A DNA stretch of 37,380 bases from positions 1 to 37,380 of the forward strand of contig NZ_POTY01000033.1 in the NCBI RefSeq assembly GCF_003236315.1, given 5' to 3'. The notes below the pieces were generated by a model, which made no database searches, was not told the origin of the DNA, and saw only the letters and a list, made by a program, of their open reading frames with translations. This stretch comes from Micromonospora craterilacus. GTDB taxonomy: Bacteria; Actinomycetota; Actinomycetes; Mycobacteriales; Micromonosporaceae. A program made the translations under genes and the position numbers. This document shows, piece by piece, positions 20,636 through 32,316 of this stretch (the first letter of the stretch is position 1; every line of letters begins with the position of its first letter).

Positions 20636-20669
20636 GGTCAACCTCCGCCCGGCTCGCTCGTCGTCCTAC

Positions 20670-21524
20670 TCAGGAAGCGGCCGACGCCGACGGCGCCACC
20701 ACGTTGCCGCTGCCGGGGCTGAAGTCGGCCGGGATCGGGCGGCCCGGGTAGTACTGCTCCTGCAGCCGGGTCCAGGTGCCGTCGGCGATCACCTCGTCGA
20801 GGGCCTTGTCCAACGCCTCCCGCAGCGCGTCGTTGCCCTTGGCGAAGGCGTACGCGGTCGGGGCCGGGCTGAGCAGCTTCGCCGCTACCGTGATCTTGCC
20901 GCCGCTGTCCGCTGCGGACTTGTCGCCGATCTCGGCGGGAGCGATCCAGGCGTCCGCAGTGCCGGCCTTGAGCTGGTTGAGCGCACCGTTGTAGTCGGGC
21001 ACCCGGACCGGGTCGAGTCCCTTGCCGGTGGCGTAGTCGTCCTGGACGGTGCCCTGCACGACCACCACCCGCTTGCCGGGCAACTCGTCGAAGCTGGTCA
21101 GCGACGAGCCGGCGGGCACGTCGAGGCCGAAGTAGCCGAAGTCGTACCCGTTGCCGAAGTCGACGGTCTTCTTCCGCGCCTCGGTGATGGTGATCGACGA
21201 GCTGCCGATGTCGAACTTGCGGTTGCCCACCTGGGCGAGCAGCGCGGAGAAGTCGGTGCCGACGAACTCCACCTTCAGCCCGATCTTGTCGGCGGCGGCG
21301 ACCAGCAGATCGTTGTCGAACCCGGTGAACTTGCCGTCCTTGAGGTACACGTTCGGCGGCGCGTCGCTGAGCGTGCCGGCCCGCAGCACCCCGGGCTGGA
21401 GCAGGCGGTACGGGTTGTCGGTGCCGCCGGCGGAGTCCGAGCCGCAGGCGGTGAGGGCGGTGGCACCGAGGATGGCGGCGACGCCGACGGCGGCGGCTCG
21501 GGTCAGGGCAGGAAGGAATCGCAC
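20670..21524 (-). CDS. Amino-acid ABC importer, substrate-binding lipoprotein
   Basis: 284 aa from GTG at 21524, preceded by AGGAGA; a longer frame starting at 21584 adds residues with no signal-peptide character. The signal peptide (VRFLPALTRAAAVGVAAILG) ends in a lipobox LTAC with Cys at about residue 27. The mature part is a SBP_bac_3 two-lobed binding protein: GFDNDLLVAAADKIG, FDIGSSSITITEARKKTVDF and GTVQDDYATGKGLDP are typical. It captures the substrate outside the membrane. The riboswitch and leader peptide upstream of this gene suggest methionine, cystine or a related sulfur compound. Confidence 0.94.
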   Translation of the reverse strand: MRFLPALTRAAAVGVAAILGATALTACGSDSAGGTDNPYRLLQPGVLRAGTLSDAPPNVYLKDGKFTGFDNDLLVAAADKIGLKVEFVGTDFSALLAQVGNRKFDIGSSSITITEARKKTVDFGNGYDFGYFGLDVPAGSSLTSFDELPGKRVVVVQGTVQDDYATGKGLDPVRVPDYNGALNQLKAGTADAWIAPAEIGDKSAADSGGKITVAAKLLSPAPTAYAFAKGNDALREALDKALDEVIADGTWTRLQEQYYPGRPIPADFSPGSGNVVAPSASAAS

Positions 21525-21572
21525 AGGTGTCTCCTGGTTGAGCGGCGGCGGGCACGGGCGTGCCGCACCGAC

Positions 21573-21794: not shown

Positions 21795-21917
21795 CTGGGA
21801 ACCAGGCCACGCTTGCATCGGAGGTTGCTCCGATGCCTGGTCTTCACCCGGGGCACCCCTGCGCGGACGAGGGTTGCCGGCCAGCGAGCCGGGGCTTGAC
21901 GCTGGCGCTCATGACCT
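21795..21917 (-). promoter_or_regulatory. SAM-IV riboswitch
   Basis: Read on the minus strand from 21917, the RNA contains GGTCATGAGCGCCAGCGTC, AAGCCCCGGCTCGCTGGCC, GGCAACCCTC, GGGGTGCCCCGGGTGAAGACC in order, which is the conserved core of the SAM-IV riboswitch class described in actinomycetes. It is followed by a perfect 9-bp hairpin (21815-21836) and a CCTGG/CCAGG hairpin (21795-21807). SAM binding is expected to lower expression of the downstream importer operon. A TAGCCT -10-like hexamer lies just upstream (about 21923-21928). Confidence 0.88.
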
Positions 21918-22884: not shown

Positions 22885-24584
22885 GCATCGTGGAGCGGAA
22901 CCGCTACGTCGCCCTGTACGGGCCGACCACCGGCGACCGGATCCGGCTGGCCGACACGAACCTGCTCATCGAGGTCGAACACGACCACTGTGCCGGCGGC
23001 GACGAGGCGGTCTTCGGCGGCGGAAAGGTGATCCGCGAATCGATGGGCCAGTCCCGGGCCACCCGCGCCGACGGTGCCCTGGACACCGTCATCACCGGCG
23101 CGGTGGTCCTCGACCACTGGGGCGTGGTCAAGGCCGACGTGGGACTGCGCGACGGCCGGATCGTCGCGCTGGGCCGGGCCGGCAACCCGGACACCATGGA
23201 CGGTGTCCATCCGGACCTGGTGATCGGCCCGGCGACCGAGGTGATCGCCGGCAACGGCCGGATCCTCACCGCCGGTGGGGTCGACACCCACGTGCACTTC
23301 ATCTGCCCGCAGATCGTCACCGAGGCGCTGGCCGGCGGGGTCACCACTCTGGTCGGTGGCGGCACCGGGCCGGCCGAGGGCACCCGCGCCACCACCGTCA
23401 CCCCCAACGCCTGGCACCTGGCCCGGATGCACGAGGCCCTCGACGCGTTCCCGGTCAACGTGCTGTTGCTGGGCAAGGGCAACACGGTGTCCACCGAGGC
23501 GCTGTGGGAGCAGTTGCGGGCCGGGGCCGGCGGATTCAAACTGCACGAGGACTGGGGCACCACCCCGGCGGCGATCGACGCCTGCCTGCGGGTCGCGGAC
23601 GCCTCCGGCGTGCAGGTCTCCATCCACACCGACACCCTCAACGAGGCCGGGTTCGTCGCCGACACCCTGCGCGCGATCGGCGGCCGGGCGATCCACTCGT
23701 ACCACACCGAGGGCGCCGGAGGCGGGCACGCGCCGGACATCATCACCGTGGCCGGGGAGCCGAACGTGCTGCCCTCGTCGACCAACCCGACCCGCCCGTA
23801 CACCCGCAACACCCTCGCCGAGCACCTCGACATGCTGATGGTCTGCCACCACCTCAACCCGGCCGTGCCGGAGGACCTGGCCTTCGCCGAGAGCCGGATC
23901 CGGCCGTCCACCATGGCCGCCGAGGATCTGCTGCACGACCTCGGGGCCATCTCCATCATCGGTTCCGACTCGCAGGCGATGGGCCGGGTCGGGGAGATCG
24001 TGCTGCGTACCTGGCAGAGCGCGCACGTGATGAAGGCCCGGGTGGGCGCGCTGCCCGGCGACGGCGCCGCCGACAACCACCGGGCCCGCCGGTACGTGGC
24101 GAAGTACACCATCTGTGCCGCCATGGCAAACGGCCTCGACCACGAGATCGGGTCGGTGGAGCCGGGCAAGCTCGCCGACCTGGTGCTGTGGGAGCCAGCC
24201 TTCTTCGGCGTACGCCCGCACCTGGTGATCAAGGGCGGCATGATCGCGTACGCCCAGATGGGTGATGCGAACGCCTCCATCCCGACCCCGCAGCCGATGC
24301 TGCCCCGGCCGATGTTCGGTGCGTACGGAGGCGCTGCCGCCGCCACCAGCCTGGCTTTCGTCGCCCCCGCGGCGCTCGACGCGGGGCTGCGCCTGGACGT
24401 GCGCCGGCGGGTGGTGCCGGTGGCCGACGTACGGTCCCGGAGCAAGACGGACCTGCCGGAGAACGGCGCGCTGCCGCGCATCGAGGTCGACCCGGACACC
24501 TTCACCGTCCGGGTCGACGGGGTGGTGGTCGAACCGGATCCGGTGACCGAGCTGCCCATGGCCCAGCGGTACTTCCTCTTCTGA
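22881..24584 (+). CDS. ureC: Urease alpha (catalytic) subunit
   Basis: 567 aa, full length, from ATG at 22881. All nickel-centre residues are visible: H137 and H139 (VDTHVHF), the carbamylated bridging K220 ([10 protein letters not shown]), H249 (SIHTDTLNE), H275 ([15 protein letters not shown]) and D363 (GSDSQAMGR), together with the mobile-flap C322-H323-H324 (MVCHHLNP). It should therefore be active once loaded with nickel by UreFGD. It overlaps ureB by ATGA and ureF by TGATG, indicating one tightly coupled transcript. Confidence 0.98.
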
Positions 24585-26901: not shown

Positions 26902-27031
26902 CGGTGGTGGCGGCCAGCGGCGCCTCGGTTGTCCTCTGTGGGCGGTGGGTGCGCGCTGTTGAGCTGGTATGGCAGGGTGTGTCCGGGTGCCGGCGTCCGC
27001 CGGTTGCCCTTCTGACCCAGGGGGAGTGGTC

Positions 27032-28072
27032 ATGGTCAAGCACCTCAGTCGTCGGGCCGCGATCGGGATCGGAGCGGCTGCGGCAGCGCTGGCGGCGGCA
27101 CCGGGCAGCGCCGCCGCAGCCGGTGCGCCGCCGGTCGGCGCCCTGCCATCCGGTGCCGGCCGGCCCGGCCCGGTCGGCGGTCAGGAGTTGATCCGGCGTA
27201 CGTATCGGCAGCAGAAGGCTCAGGCGGGCGGTGTGTGGCACTCGCACATCGCGATGGTCGACGCCACCGGGGTGCCGCGAGCCCTGGTGGAGGACGACGC
27301 CGACCGCGTGACGCATGGGTACAGCGTGCAGAAGCTCGCGGTCGCGGTGGCGGTCATGGACAAGATCGACCGCGGCGAGCTGCGGCTCGACCAGCGCCTC
27401 GATCTGACCGCCGACATCATCCTCGGCGGCAGCGGCATCTACTTCCTGCAGACCGTCTGGGGTGACGAGGTCACGGTGGCGAACTTCCTCACCGCGCTGC
27501 TGCTCGTCTCCGACAACACGGCGGTGCGGATGTGCGGCCGGGTGGTGCCGGCGTTGGAGATCAACCAGATCCTCGCGGCCAAGGGCTTCACGCACACCCG
27601 GGTCGAGCCGGTCGCCAACCCGAACCGGTTCTTCCTCGGCGTGACCACCCCGCGGGAGACCCACGACCTGCTCTGGCGGCTGGCCAACAAGACCCTGCTG
27701 TCGGCCCGGTCGAGCGACTTCCTGCTCGGCATCCTGCGCTGGATCAACGGCTACCACGACGGGATCCGCCGCAACATGTCCTCGGCGGAACGCAGCCGGG
27801 TCGCCACCAAGTACGGCGCCGACTTCGACACCGCCGGCGCGGCCCGGCACGAGGCCGGCATCATCTTCGACGCGACCGGGGCGCCGACGCTGACCTATGC
27901 GCTCTTCGCCGACTCGCTCGGCGACCTGGACAACTACGGGGCGACCCACCCGGCCGTGCAGGCCCACGCGATCCTGGGCCGGGTCATGTTCGACGCCGTC
28001 GGCCCGGTCACCAACCGCGCGGCCCGGGCGCGGCACTCCGTCCGGCAGTTCCGGCCGGTCAACGGCGGCTGA
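27032..28072 (+). CDS. Tat-exported serine hydrolase, class A beta-lactamase fold
   Basis: 346 aa from ATG at 27032 with GGGGGAG upstream. The N-terminus (KHLSRRAAIGIGAAAA) is a twin-arginine signal with an Ala-X-Ala-rich cleavage region near 28-31. The catalytic set of class A beta-lactamases is recognisable: S98-V-Q-K101, S160-D-N162 and an omega-loop-like E192-P-V-A-N196. The KTG box position reads K260-Y-G262, an unusual replacement of Thr. This subgroup of actinomycete exported proteins is annotated as serine hydrolases or beta-lactamases; true beta-lactam hydrolysis is unproven. It follows the urease operon by 130 bp with no evident functional link. Confidence 0.88.
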   Translation: MVKHLSRRAAIGIGAAAAALAAAPGSAAAAGAPPVGALPSGAGRPGPVGGQELIRRTYRQQKAQAGGVWHSHIAMVDATGVPRALVEDDADRVTHGYSVQKLAVAVAVMDKIDRGELRLDQRLDLTADIILGGSGIYFLQTVWGDEVTVANFLTALLLVSDNTAVRMCGRVVPALEINQILAAKGFTHTRVEPVANPNRFFLGVTTPRETHDLLWRLANKTLLSARSSDFLLGILRWINGYHDGIRRNMSSAERSRVATKYGADFDTAGAARHEAGIIFDATGAPTLTYALFADSLGDLDNYGATHPAVQAHAILGRVMFDAVGPVTNRAARARHSVRQFRPVNGG

Positions 28073-28947: not shown

Positions 28948-29403
28948 TCAGGCTGGGGCTGGGGCTGGGATGTGGTGGCGGTCCGGATCCAACCGGCCGA
29001 TCAGGTCGCCGAGCCGGGCGGCCAGGTCGGCGTCGCCCGGAGCAGCCAGCCCGGCCAGGTCGGCGCGGATCTGGGCGGACAGGCGCTCGTGTTCGCGTCG
29101 GCCGCGGGCCGTCAGGTAGGCGCGGATGCGGCGGCGGTCGGCCGGGTCGATCCGGCGGAAGACGAGGTTACGGTCGACGAGCTGGTCGACCAGCTTGGTC
29201 AGCGTGCCCGGGGGCAGGGACGCCTCGGTGGCGACCGCGCTCATCGGGTGGCCTCGACCGTCGGCGAGCAGGCAGAGCACCCGCCACGCCTCGATGCTGA
29301 GCGACTCGGCGGCGAGCACCCCACCGACCCGGCGCGAGAGCAGCCGCTCGGCGCGGGTGAGCAGGGGCAGCAGGTCGGCTGCGGAACCGGGAAGGTCTGA
29401 CAT
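28948..29403 (-). CDS. MarR-family transcriptional regulator
   Basis: 151 aa from ATG at 29403. The winged HTH is clear: SLSIEAWRVLCLLADG, HPMSAVATEASLPPGTLTKLVDQLVDRNLV (in parts) and the wing RRIDPADRRRIRAYLTARG, with dimerisation helices at both ends. MarR proteins are dimers that usually repress a divergent or own promoter and release on ligand binding. It diverges from the AmiC-like sensor gene with ~98 bp between, where a perfect GGTGGC/GCCACC palindrome is found. It may thus control entry into the urea-uptake locus (inference). Confidence 0.92.
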   Translation of the reverse strand: MSDLPGSAADLLPLLTRAERLLSRRVGGVLAAESLSIEAWRVLCLLADGRGHPMSAVATEASLPPGTLTKLVDQLVDRNLVFRRIDPADRRRIRAYLTARGRREHERLSAQIRADLAGLAAPGDADLAARLGDLIGRLDPDRHHIPAPAPA

Positions 29404-29500: not shown

Positions 29501-30628
29501 ATGTCCGTGCCGGCACCGGGGTCCGGGCGCCCGCAGGCGGCGGAGAGCATCACCGCCGGGGCGTCCTGGTTCACCGTCGACCGTGGCGTGGTCAGCGTCG
29601 CGCTGGTCTACCCGATGCGCGGGCCGGCCGGCATGTTCGGTCCGAGCTGCGAGTTGTGCGCCCAACTCGCGGTGGAGGAGGTCAATCAGCGCGGCGGGGT
29701 GCTCGGCCGGGAGTTGCGGCTGGTGCCGGTGGACGGCGGGGCGCCGCCGGTCGAGGTCGCGGCCGAGGTGGAGGCGTTGGTGTCGGTGGGCGCGGTGCAG
29801 GGCGTGACCGGCTGGCACATCTCCTCGGTACGCCAGGCGGTCGCCCCGCGGATCGCGCACCGCGTGCCGTACGTCTACACCGCGCTGTACGAGGGCGGTG
29901 AGCGTACCGAGGGCGTGTTCCTGACCAGCGAGACGCCGGACGCCCAGCTGTGGCCGGCGATGCGGCTGCTCGCCGGGGATCTGGGCGTGCGGCGCTGGTT
30001 CGTGGTGGGCAACGACTACGTCTGGCCACGTCGGACCACCCGGGCGGCCTACCGGTACGCGCTGCGCGGTGGGGGCCGGGTGGTCGGGCACCACTTCCTG
30101 CCCCTGGCGGCCCACGACTTCGCGGAGGTGCTGCGCCGGATCGAACGCAGCGACGCCGACGCGGTGCTGATGCTGCTGGTCGGGGCCGACGCGGTGCGGT
30201 TCAACCGGGCCTTCGCCCGGGCCGGGCTGGATCAGCGCTGCCTGCGGCTGAGCACCCTGATGGACGAGAACATGCTGCTGGCCAGCGGTGTTGCGAACAC
30301 TCGTCGGCTGTTCAGCACCGCCGGCTTCTTCGCCGGCCTGGTCACTCAGGAGAACCTGGACTTCCATGGCGCGTTCGCCCGTCGCTTCGGGCTGGAGGCG
30401 CCGCCGCTGGGCAGCCTGGGGGAGTCCTGCTACGAGGGCGTGATGCTGCTCGCGGCGCTGATCGCCGAGGCCGGCACGCTGGACGTACGGGCGGTGGAGG
30501 CGTCCGCCGACGTGGTGACGTACGGCGGACCCCGTGGTGAGCTGCGGTTGCGTCGCCGGCACGTCCGCCAGCGTATCTACCTCGCCGAGGCCGACGGCCT
30601 GGACTTCAGCGTCCTCGCCGAACTGTGA
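29501..30628 (+). CDS. AmiC/UrtA-family binding protein without signal peptide (probable cytoplasmic sensor)
   Basis: 375 aa from ATG at 29501. The whole protein is a type I periplasmic-binding fold of the UrtA/FmdD/AmiC group and parallels UrtA encoded downstream: VEEVNQRGGVLGRELRLVPVDGG vs UrtA's [26 protein letters not shown] vs [12 protein letters not shown], and an SDADAVLML strand (all cited in parts). Its N-terminus (MSVPAPGSGRPQAAESI) has no hydrophobic segment or lipobox, so it should stay in the cytoplasm. In Pseudomonas, AmiC is such a cytoplasmic amide sensor that holds the antiterminator AmiR. Here it sits directly before an RNA attenuator and the urt operon, suggesting a urea/amide sensor; no ANTAR partner is in the window. 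Confidence 0.85.
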   Translation: MSVPAPGSGRPQAAESITAGASWFTVDRGVVSVALVYPMRGPAGMFGPSCELCAQLAVEEVNQRGGVLGRELRLVPVDGGAPPVEVAAEVEALVSVGAVQGVTGWHISSVRQAVAPRIAHRVPYVYTALYEGGERTEGVFLTSETPDAQLWPAMRLLAGDLGVRRWFVVGNDYVWPRRTTRAAYRYALRGGGRVVGHHFLPLAAHDFAEVLRRIERSDADAVLMLLVGADAVRFNRAFARAGLDQRCLRLSTLMDENMLLASGVANTRRLFSTAGFFAGLVTQENLDFHGAFARRFGLEAPPLGSLGESCYEGVMLLAALIAEAGTLDVRAVEASADVVTYGGPRGELRLRRRHVRQRIYLAEADGLDFSVLAEL

Positions 30629-30638
30629 CCCGGGTGCC

Positions 30639-30669
30639 TTGACACGCCCGGCCGCCGGCCGCCTAAGAT
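30639..30669 (+). promoter_or_regulatory. Promoter of the urt leader (TTGACA / TAAGAT)
   Basis: A consensus -35 TTGACA at 30639-30644 and a -10 TAAGAT at 30664-30669 are separated by 19 bp, ten bases after the AmiC-like gene stop. Transcription should start near 30676, giving a ~400-base leader before urtA. The long spacer suggests that an activator may be needed. Confidence 0.6.
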
Positions 30670-30670
30670 G

Positions 30671-30769
30671 CTTCCTGTGTGAAGTATCCGGCCATCGCGC
30701 CGGATACCGACACCCGTCCGACAGTGGTCGATAAGCAACGTCCACTGCGGCTGATAATCGTATGCCGAT
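30671..30769 (+). promoter_or_regulatory. Structured 5' leader upstream of urtA (attenuator, sensor part)
   Basis: Three hairpins follow the promoter: CTTC/GAAG (30671-30684, six-base loop), a perfect 9-bp GTATCCGGC/GCCGGATAC stem with hexaloop CATCGC (30684-30707), and CAGTGG/CCACTG (30722-30747). Next, ATCG/CGAT (30757-30769) would pair with part of the terminator's 5' arm and so could act as an antiterminator. I recognise no known riboswitch class. ANTAR target RNAs have paired hexaloop stems with A1 and G4; this hexaloop has A2 and G5, so the match is incomplete. Confidence 0.6.
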
Positions 30770-30810
30770 GCCATTCCGTCGATTTTGCGGCGGGGGCATC
30801 GGCATTTTTT
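30763..30810 (+). terminator. Intrinsic terminator in the urt leader
   Basis: TGCCGATGCC (30763-30772) pairs perfectly with GGCATCGGCA (30795-30804) and six T residues follow (30805-30810). An inner CCG/CGG pairing sits in the loop. A U-tract terminator this clean is rare in GC-rich actinomycetes, and here it is placed ~90 bases after a promoter and ~260 bases before urtA, the position of an attenuator. Confidence 0.85.
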
Positions 30811-30843
30811 CGTGCCGTCTTGCCGCAGTGGCACCGGTCAACG

Positions 30844-30870
30844 GAAACAGTCTATTGAGGACCGGGAAAC
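30844..30870 (+). promoter_or_regulatory. GlnR-like half-sites upstream of urtA
   Basis: GAAAC occurs at 30844-30848 and 30866-30870, exactly 22 bp apart, the b-to-b spacing of the actinomycete nitrogen regulator GlnR box, with a weak a-site TTGAG in the right phase at 30855-30859. The outer a-site is not matched. GlnR control of urea uptake is known in Streptomyces; this site is a candidate only. Confidence 0.35.
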
Positions 30871-31071
30871 ATCCGCGCAACGAAGCGGATCGAAGCTTTC
30901 CCTGCCCGATATCCGATTCGCTGCCCGGCCGGCGTCCACCCGCCCCGCCGGGCAGCGCGAAATGTTCCGACGGACCGCACCGCAGGCACGCAGATCCGTA
31001 CTCCTCGACCCGGGGCCGGTGTTCGTTCCCGGGTACCGACTTTCGCCTCACCCGCGACGCAGGGAGAATTG

Positions 31072-32316
31072 ATGACACTGTTCCGGGGCCGCCGCATCCT
31101 GGCGGGTGCCATGACCCTGGTCGCCGCGGCCGCGCTGGCCGCGTGCGGCAGCAAGACCTCCGACTCCGGCATCGCCGCCGGCGTCAGCGCCGACGTTTCC
31201 GGCGACACCGTCAAGGTGGGCCTGCTCAACTCCCTCTCCGGCACCATGGCCATCAGCGAGGTGACCGTTCGCGACTCGATCATGCTGGCGATCGAGGAGA
31301 TCAACGCGGCCGGTGGTGTGCTCGGCAAGAAGATCCAACCCATCGGTGAGGACGGCGCCTCAGACTGGCCGACCTTCGCCGAGAAGGCCGAGAAACTGAT
31401 CCGCGAGGACCGTGTGGCGGCCGTCTTCGGCTGCTGGACCTCGGCCAGCCGAAAGGCCGTCAAGCCGGTGTTCGAGAAGAACAAGGCGTTGCTGTTCTAC
31501 CCCGTGCAGTACGAGGGCCTGGAACAGTCGCCGTACATCTTCTACACCGGTGCCACGACGAACCAGCAGATCGTTCCCGGGCTCGACTACCTCAAGGCGC
31601 AGGGCGCCAGGTCGCTCTACCTCGTCGGTTCCGACTACGTCTTCCCGCGGACCGCGAACAAAATCATCAAGGCGTACGCGGCGGCCAACGGAATGACGGT
31701 GCTGGGGGAGGACTACGCCCCGCTCGGTTCCACCGAGTTCGGCACGATCACCAACAAGGTGAAGTCGTCCGGCGCGGACGCGGTCTTCAACACCCTCAAC
31801 GGCGACAGCAACGTGGCGTTCTTCAAGGAGTACAAGTCCGCCGGATTGACCGCCGCCAGCATGCCGGTGGTGTCGGTGTCGATCGCCGAGGAGGAGGTCA
31901 AGAGCATCGGCACGCAGTACCTCGAGGGCCAGCTGACCGCCTGGAACTACTACCAGACCACCTCCGGCGCGGCGAACGAGAAGTTCGTCGCCGCGTACAA
32001 GGCCAAGTACGGGGCGGACAAGCCGACCAGCGATCCGATGGAGGCCGCGTACGTCTCGGTGCACCTGTGGAAGGCGATGGTGGAGAAGGCCGGCACCTTC
32101 GACGTGGAGAAGGTCCGGGAGGCATCCAGCGGCATCACCTTCGAGGCGCCGGAGGGGCTGGTCACCGTGGACGGCCCGACCCAGCACATCGCCAAGACGG
32201 CCCGCATCGGCAAGGTCGGCGCGGACGGCCTGATCACCGAGGTCTGGAACTCCGGTCAGCCGATCACGCCCGACCCGTACCTCAAGAGCTACCCGTGGGC
32301 CGGCGGCCTGAGCTGA
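31072..32316 (+). CDS. urtA: Urea ABC importer, substrate-binding lipoprotein
   Basis: 414 aa from ATG at 31072 with AGGGAG upstream (a TTG at 31069 is less likely). Signal peptide with lipobox LAAC ahead of GSKTSDSG, so it is anchored outside the membrane. The mature protein is a UrtA-type binding protein: [74 protein letters not shown] and [13 protein letters not shown] are characteristic. It captures urea (or short-chain amides) and passes it to UrtBC. It is first in urtABCDE, behind a 443-bp regulated leader, and is followed by a strong hairpin before urtB. Confidence 0.96.

Follow-up and report, generated by a model that had tools for sequence, protein, structure and literature searches.

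Palindromic operator-like element, two predicted promoters and an intrinsic terminator before the urea transporter operon of Micromonospora craterilacus

The urea transporter locus and the gap before urtA

The DNA analysed here (hereafter the window, meaning the whole stretch of 37,380 nucleotides) belongs to the genome of Micromonospora craterilacus, which comprises 7.3 Mb in 609 contigs. In the window, ureC, ureF, ureG and ureD lie upstream and are followed by a class A beta-lactamase-like gene, a methyltransferase gene, a MarR-family regulator gene, an AmiC-like gene and urtA. The MarR gene (28948-29403, minus strand) is divergent from the AmiC-like gene and scores 38.2 bits with Pfam MarR (cut-off 24.6) and 35.7 bits with MarR_2 (cut-off 27), and its DNA-binding region is well kept in an alignment of eight members. 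The AmiC-like gene (29501-30628, plus strand; an alternative longer ORF from 29126 overlaps the MarR gene) encodes a Peripla_BP_6 protein related to the solved AmiC (1pea/1qo0) and to urea-binding proteins, with an E value of 4.7e-21 for 1pea, which is outscored by 8tg1 and three urea-binding proteins. No hydrophobic N-terminus or signal peptide was seen in its translation by eye. The product is probably a cytoplasmic ligand-binding protein, and the combination of a Peripla_BP fold, kinship with AmiC and no signal peptide (by eye) is that of an AmiC-family sensor. The next gene, urtA (31072-32316, plus strand), is the first of the urt operon and encodes the substrate-binding protein of a urea ABC transporter (TIGR03407, 583.3 bits, cut-off 492.75). 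An earlier note on this DNA had placed an AmiC-like gene before urtA with a 443-bp gap between them, and both the gene and the gap (30629-31071) were found as described.

The gap contains several features in a row. TTGACA (30639-30644) and TAAGAT (30664-30669), 19 nt apart, form the predicted promoter P1 (30639-30669, plus strand); these promoter-like elements had been reported earlier and are present, while our promoter scan was limited to spacers of 16-18 nt and does not list P1. A palindromic, operator-like sequence, GATGCTTCCTGTGTGAAGTATC (30667-30688), lies over the -10 element and the start of P1. It is followed on the plus strand by hairpin 1 (30684-30707), by a second hairpin proposed in the earlier note (30722-30747) and by an intrinsic terminator (30762-30810). 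Further downstream are four GlnR-type half-boxes with an 11-bp period (30844-30881, plus strand), namely GAAAC, an imperfect TTGAG, GAAAC and GCAAC, and 10 nt after the last of them GAAGCT (30892-30897, plus strand), the predicted -10 element of a second promoter, P2, which is predicted to lie downstream of the terminator. The palindrome and the GlnR-type boxes are the most widely conserved parts of the leader, and both are absent from the earlier note.

Other features of the window were recorded as well. The class A beta-lactamase-like gene (Beta-lactamase2, 26969-28072), situated between the urease genes and the MarR/AmiC pair, occurs near MarR and AmiC genes also in several relatives. A SAM-IV riboswitch was found on the minus strand at 21804-21916 (105.9 bits, gathering score 38), and the minus-strand ORF downstream of it (20641-21555) has no NCBIfam match. 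The Rfam family 5_ureB_sRNA matches at 23036-23322 (minus strand, 65.9 bits), antisense to ureC, but this match may be due simply to the urease coding sequence, which is conserved and which the family overlaps.

For comparison, AmiC-like loci were taken as the best 80 of 309, from Micromonospora, Catellatospora, Phytohabitans, Nonomuraea, Streptomyces, Hamadaea and Actinoplanes. urtA is adjacent in 72 of these 80 loci (not in L055, L057-L060, L064, L065 and L067). The 72 loci, 13 further ones and the window give 86 leaders with 38 distinct operators. The 13 partly repeat genomes of the 72 (L005 and L020, for example, have the same covariance-model scores), and L004, which equals the window, was left out of the 86, while the listing of palindromes and terminators counts 87.

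The palindrome over P1 and the GlnR-type boxes of P2

The constant element of the 86 leaders, which represent six genera, is a DNA palindrome, GATRCTTCC-N4-GGAAGTAWC, located over the start of P1. When about 700 nt around urtA are considered, 84 of the 86 leaders contain a site that deviates from the palindrome at no more than 3 of 16 positions, and the best sites of the other two deviate at 4; six palindrome positions never vary. Among the 38 distinct sequences, positions 4 and 19 pair in 25 and positions 9 and 14 in 21. Because the changes are non-compensatory, the palindrome is regarded as a DNA site and its reading as an RNA hairpin was rejected. The position of the predicted start argues in the same direction, as with TTGACA as the -35 element transcription would start inside the palindrome and only its second half would be transcribed. 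The asymmetric cores CTTCCTGCGTGAAG and CTTCCTGTGGGAAG were found in both orientations, that is, also as reverse complements, which is compatible with a symmetric protein-binding site. As in operators of the MarR family, a palindrome of about 16-22 bp overlaps a predicted promoter and a MarR gene is nearby, and it is predicted that the product of this gene binds here.

TTGACA precedes the palindrome by 17-18 or 21-23 nt in 80 of the 86 leaders, the exceptions being L077, L078, L085, L093, L094 and L095. TTGACA and palindrome taken together form a much more specific pattern than the palindrome alone, and this pattern was present in 4 of the 296 class genomes and in 5 of 101 Streptomyces genomes (reversed control 0). 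When the 7.3 Mb genome of the window was searched for the palindrome with at most 3 mismatches, two sites were obtained, that of the window with 1 mismatch and another with 3. These two matches per strand equal the two per strand of the reversed control, and the window site, the sole one in the genome with fewer than 3 mismatches, stands out by its single mismatch only.

The palindrome can be associated with the presence of the MarR and AmiC genes. In 77 of the 80 loci (the best of 309) a MarR relative accompanies the AmiC-like gene, including loci that have urt elsewhere, and some Streptomyces carry the MarR gene between AmiC and urtA. The three of these 80 loci without a MarR match are L063, which is truncated by the contig end, L064 and L093. 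The 101 Streptomyces genomes include 14 with urtA and 18 with an AmiC-like gene, and MarR was found in 18 of the 21 in which it was sought. At urtA the palindrome (at most 3 mismatches) is present in 12 of the 14, and ten of the twelve have both MarR and AmiC. The remaining two are G158, with MarR and no AmiC match, and G426, with AmiC and no MarR match in a genome listed as 78% complete. In G352 and G370 both genes and the palindrome at urtA are missing, and as these two look alike they may represent one event; in G361 the MarR/AmiC pair is on another contig.

A second set, the best 30 of 48 places, consisted of 27 urtA loci together with L108, L112 and L113. In this set the palindrome occurs with 1-2 mismatches at the five urtA loci that have a close AmiC (at least 73%) beside them and is missing from the other 22 of the 27, whose best sites have 4-8 mismatches (two of them 4). 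A distant AmiC (45-51%) elsewhere in the genome is found in G145, G188, G198, G216 and G345 without a palindrome at urtA, and the link of palindrome and AmiC therefore holds for close orthologues only. In L093 and in G426 (L114, L137) the AmiC-like gene adjoins urtA and the palindrome is kept, with near-perfect symmetry in L114, while MarR was undetected. Autoregulation of MarR through the same palindrome was considered and mostly not seen: the MarR-AmiC gaps inspected have no palindrome by eye, apart from that of one distant locus, L181.

The GlnR half-box consensus is given as gTnAc-n6-GaAAc in the sources consulted (PMC10704036, PMC3087709). The window sequence GAAAC-n6-TTGAG-n6-GAAAC-n6-GCAAC, followed after 10 nt by GAAGCT, has the composition of a GlnR-dependent promoter, with one box imperfect. 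Downstream of the palindrome, 81 of the 86 leaders have [GCA]ANKCT at a distance of exactly 10 nt from a preceding GlnR-type half-box, whereas 13 other spacings between half-box and -10 element occur in 0-6 leaders and shuffled sequences give fewer than one. The Streptomyces leaders L109 and L110, which lack the palindrome, still have the half-boxes with the 10-nt spacing before urtA (by eye), and the GlnR boxes are therefore independent of the palindrome. The 11-bp periodicity resembles that of actinomycete GlnR-activated promoters as these sources describe them (PMC10704036, PMC3087709), but here a separate operator, a promoter and a terminator lie upstream of the boxes. GlnR up-regulates the urea transporter MSMEG2978-2982 of M. 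smegmatis, with a listed value of 583.8 for MSMEG2982 (PMC3662644).

Conservation of the palindrome, the fixed spacing of box and -10 element, the terminator and the MarR/AmiC/urt synteny are all observed. Judging from the sequence, we think it rather probable that the gap is a two-input DNA control region, and not a riboswitch, with MarR and an AmiC co-sensor acting at P1 and GlnR at P2. The neighbouring MarR-family protein is predicted to bind the palindrome and repress P1, and the AmiC-like sensor with a urea- or amide-like ligand would lift it from the palindrome, by analogy with the M. smegmatis acetamidase operon. The RNA made from P1 would be short, with about 130 nt here and some 45-75 nt in Actinoplanes and Streptomyces, and would mostly stop at the terminator. 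Read-through into urtA would be small at most and could add a GlnR-independent trickle of transporter, which is the least certain step, and in Micromonospora the P1 RNA might have a role of its own. GlnR would activate P2 under nitrogen limitation, and P2 would carry most of the urt transcription.

Another explanation is that the terminator ends read-through from amiC and insulates P2, and that the palindrome binds a factor other than MarR which acts on P2 from upstream. In its favour, L093, L114 and L151 have the palindrome near the GlnR boxes but no TTGACA and no terminator recognisable by eye, and G426 has palindrome and AmiC without a MarR match. However, TTGACA is kept in nearly all leaders (80 of 86), palindromes lie near MarR/AmiC genes also at other operons, and G158 combines MarR and palindrome without an AmiC match. 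We regard this explanation as unlikely. The same three loci indicate that simple repression of P1 by MarR, as proposed for the two-input region, is not the whole story, because their palindromes occur without TTGACA or terminator; the regulator of the palindrome may also act directly on P2.

The RNA between P1 and the terminator

Hairpin 1, GTATCCGGC-CATCGC-GCCGGATAC, stands at the predicted 5' end of the P1 RNA, and the perfect 9-bp stem with a hexaloop claimed for it was confirmed. The terminator, its predicted 3' end, has the six T that had been described (30805-30810), while its stem proved to have 11 perfect pairs (30762-30772 with 30795-30805) in place of the "perfect 10-bp" of the earlier note. 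The 22-nt loop holds an inner hairpin, and our terminator scan, limited to loops of 3-8, does not list the terminator. The sequence 30670-30820 folds with -69.8 kcal/mol compared to -50.7 (sd 4.1) for shuffled sequences (z -4.67; none of 200 shuffles reached this value). Between the AmiC-like gene and P1, L046, L053 and L054 have inverted repeats of the GGTGATCAAGAGGTTT... type, perhaps a small repeat element.

Covariation was detected in two groups of Micromonospora, in which hairpin 1 covaries and the terminator stem is kept with some covariation. In group A (12 sequences; alignment A1, with 12 of 14 loci after the divergent L028 and L040 were left out) 7 of 28 pairs have both bases changed and pairing preserved. 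The same holds for 11 of 35 pairs in group B (19 sequences; alignment A2, 19 loci), and in both groups this exceeds the shuffled and slid controls; further pair types, one of five covariation measures, were not above shuffles (91 and 68 of 500). L041, L046, L049, L050, L053 and L054 are in neither alignment. The earlier note had called for a covariation check of three stems. Among 12 close sequences, window included, compensatory changes preserve stems 1 and 3, and the second stem (30722-30747) is unconserved, with 65.3% of cells paired and no double change. The antiterminator candidate put forward in the note, ATCG/CGAT, has a length of only four nucleotides.

A covariance model of group A was searched against 34 chosen sources (the window and L020 being part of the model). 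With a threshold of E<=0.01 it detected the leader RNA in 12 of the 18 sources from Micromonospora and in none of the 16 from other genera. Of the other Micromonospora sources, L041 gave 0.019 and L049 0.26, and L050, L053, L054 and L068 gave nothing. From the predicted start to the U-run there are roughly 65-75 nt in Streptomyces and about 45 nt in Actinoplanes L086, little beyond a terminator. The terminator is also less constant than the palindrome, as a simple terminator search found matches in 62 of the 87 leaders, and in L071, L074, L080, L082 and L089 these lie beyond P2. In 7 of the 19 group-B leaders (L039, L042, L044, L045, L047, L048, L051) the hairpin is kept and the U-run is gone. 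A leader peptide in Streptomyces (ATGCCTCGGGCG...) was set aside, the frames ending at different places by eye.

It could be that the P1 product in Micromonospora is a small regulatory RNA, with its synthesis controlled at the palindrome and its end at the terminator, that acts on other mRNAs. A structured, covarying RNA with a 5' hairpin and a terminator in two Micromonospora groups is in line with this, but the RNA was not found (E<=0.01) in 6 of the 18 Micromonospora sources nor in the 16 others, and the loss of the U-run in group B also speaks against it. As the main explanation of the gap, we hold a small RNA to be improbable.

The earlier note proposed an attenuator. In such a model urt would be transcribed mainly from P1, and the choice between termination and read-through would be made by an RNA that responds to urea or amides or by a protein that binds RNA. 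Its anatomy is there, as an intrinsic terminator (11-bp stem and U6) stands behind a promoter-like sequence, the fold is strong and stems 1 and 3 covary in close relatives. As the main device it is not supported: among the sources searched the RNA is confined to part of Micromonospora, the leaders of L086 and of most Streptomyces leave no room for an aptamer, the U-run is absent from 7 of 19 group-B leaders and the second stem is unconserved. The note had also held that starts of urtA transcripts only downstream of 30810 would speak against it; P2 lies there, in predicted form. With the Rfam 15 covariance models, no family matched in 30600-31080 (best E 1.2, 15.8 bits against a gathering score of 39), in agreement with the statement that no described riboswitch class is recognisable, and a known riboswitch was rejected; in the window only SAM-IV and 5_ureB_sRNA match, elsewhere than in the gap. 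A new urea- or amide-responsive element is likewise not supported as the main device, the part conserved across genera being the DNA palindrome. An attenuator at this locus is therefore quite improbable.

Antitermination of the AmiR/NasT type, in which the AmiC-like protein would control an ANTAR protein that binds the leader, is the least probable of the alternatives and can hardly be upheld, and with it the suggestion that the gap is mainly the target of an antiterminator protein. In Pseudomonas the ANTAR protein AmiR does mediate the action of AmiC, and the genes with ANTAR-type RNA matches include urea transporters (both as described in PMC3369931); ANTAR targets are described as a pair of hairpins whose hexaloops have A1 and G4 and of which the second overlaps with the terminator (PMC8934654). 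The genome has three ANTAR genes, but they are on other contigs, with no AmiC, MarR or Urt match within the surrounding 2-3 kb. Two A1/G4 hexaloops were found in 0 of the 86 leaders (shuffles 1.9%) and one in 9 (10%, shuffles 19%), the window hexaloop is CATCGC, and the constant neighbour of AmiC is a MarR gene, with no AmiR partner beside it. An ANTAR target RNA was rejected on this hexaloop test.

MarR/AmiC pairs at other operons and the control of urea uptake

For the two-input control region that we favour, similar palindromes at other operons are of interest. A matrix made from the urt palindromes was used to scan 23 loci, with first-order resampling (200 times per locus) as the null. Twelve of the 23 reached p 0.05, of which L067 and L139 have the site inside the AmiC gene and L137 and L138 are urt leaders again. 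Nothing significant was found in the other 11, including both scanned Catellatospora loci and L182, in which ure, urt and the MarR/AmiC pair are within 19 kb. In L141-L145, Streptomyces loci with AmiC and/or MarR (MarR is missing from L142 and AmiC from L143) and no urt in the stretch, the sites score 14.9-22.5 against null maxima of 4.2-13.0. The genes flanking the site in L141 are SpoIIE-type and ATP-grasp, not amide genes. The translated neighbours in L143 and L145 resemble multi-spanning permeases by eye, with one weak cytosine-permease match far below the cut-off; these permease-like products (L143 1340-3004, L145 5569-7296), beside palindromes of the urt type, have a cysteine-rich C-terminus and no Pfam match.

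Sites were also detected at operons for amide and nitrile metabolism. L183 has an aliphatic amidase gene with a site between a TGTGACA-type -35 and a -10 element by eye (p 0.03), and L174 has a nitrile hydratase operon with a site (p 0.03). L181 has a site before urtA and a further one between MarR and AmiC, and its best site has p 0.005. L175 contains AmiC, MarR, an FmdB-like ORF (by eye), AmiS/UreI and FmdA (formamidase/acetamidase) in one stretch, in this order, with a site between TTGACA and TATATT that alone is not significant (p 0.34).

The pairing of AmiC-like and MarR-like regulators is known from acetamidase and nitrile hydratase clusters. L175, from a genome of the same taxonomic order, has the gene layout of the acetamidase operon of M. 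smegmatis, in which AmiA is presumably MarR-like and AmiC presumably AmiC-like in sequence. NhhC and NhhD of the nitrile hydratase cluster of Rhodococcus rhodochrous J1 are said to have been reported by Komeda in 1996 as positive regulators. The pair in L174 resembles NhhC and NhhD in that an AmiC-like and a MarR-like gene stand beside nitrile hydratase, but the target operon in the window differs. Similarly, L175 shares with the acetamidase operon the AmiC-like, MarR, FmdB-like, AmiS/UreI and FmdA genes and a palindrome inside a TTGACA promoter; in contrast, the target in the window is a urea ABC transporter, the site is at -10/+1, and a terminator and a GlnR-type promoter follow. For M. smegmatis, AmiA is described as a negative and AmiC and AmiD as positive regulators of the acetamidase operon (PMC12719403). 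With Pseudomonas aeruginosa AmiC-AmiR the locus shares the sensor of AmiC fold (1pea/1qo0 match), but AmiR is described as an ANTAR RNA-binding antiterminator (PMC3369931), whereas the constant neighbour here is a MarR-family gene.

AmiC-like sensors, MarR regulators, GlnR boxes and intrinsic terminators are each already known. The palindromic operator, its link with urt and the two-promoter layout, a variant of known elements, were not found in the literature searched. We call MarR/AmiC control of urt unreported solely because the search, which many subscription papers lay outside, found no paper on it. A promoter-terminator pair before an operon is not necessarily a riboswitch, and such pairs should be interpreted with caution.

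A wider interpretation is offered tentatively, as a possibility that we would not call probable. Actinobacterial AmiC may have swapped the RNA-binding AmiR for a MarR DNA-binding partner and become part of a general module for amides, nitriles and urea with the operator code nACTTYC-N4-GRAAGTn. At urt, the promoter of the module would usually yield only a short terminated RNA, in part of Micromonospora now a structured small RNA, while GlnR would drive the operon from the second promoter. The analysis provides a predicted operator code and a predicted partner for the AmiC-like sensors of actinobacteria. It also links amide and nitrile control to urea uptake, and predicts that urea transport would be controlled jointly by a substrate signal and by nitrogen status.
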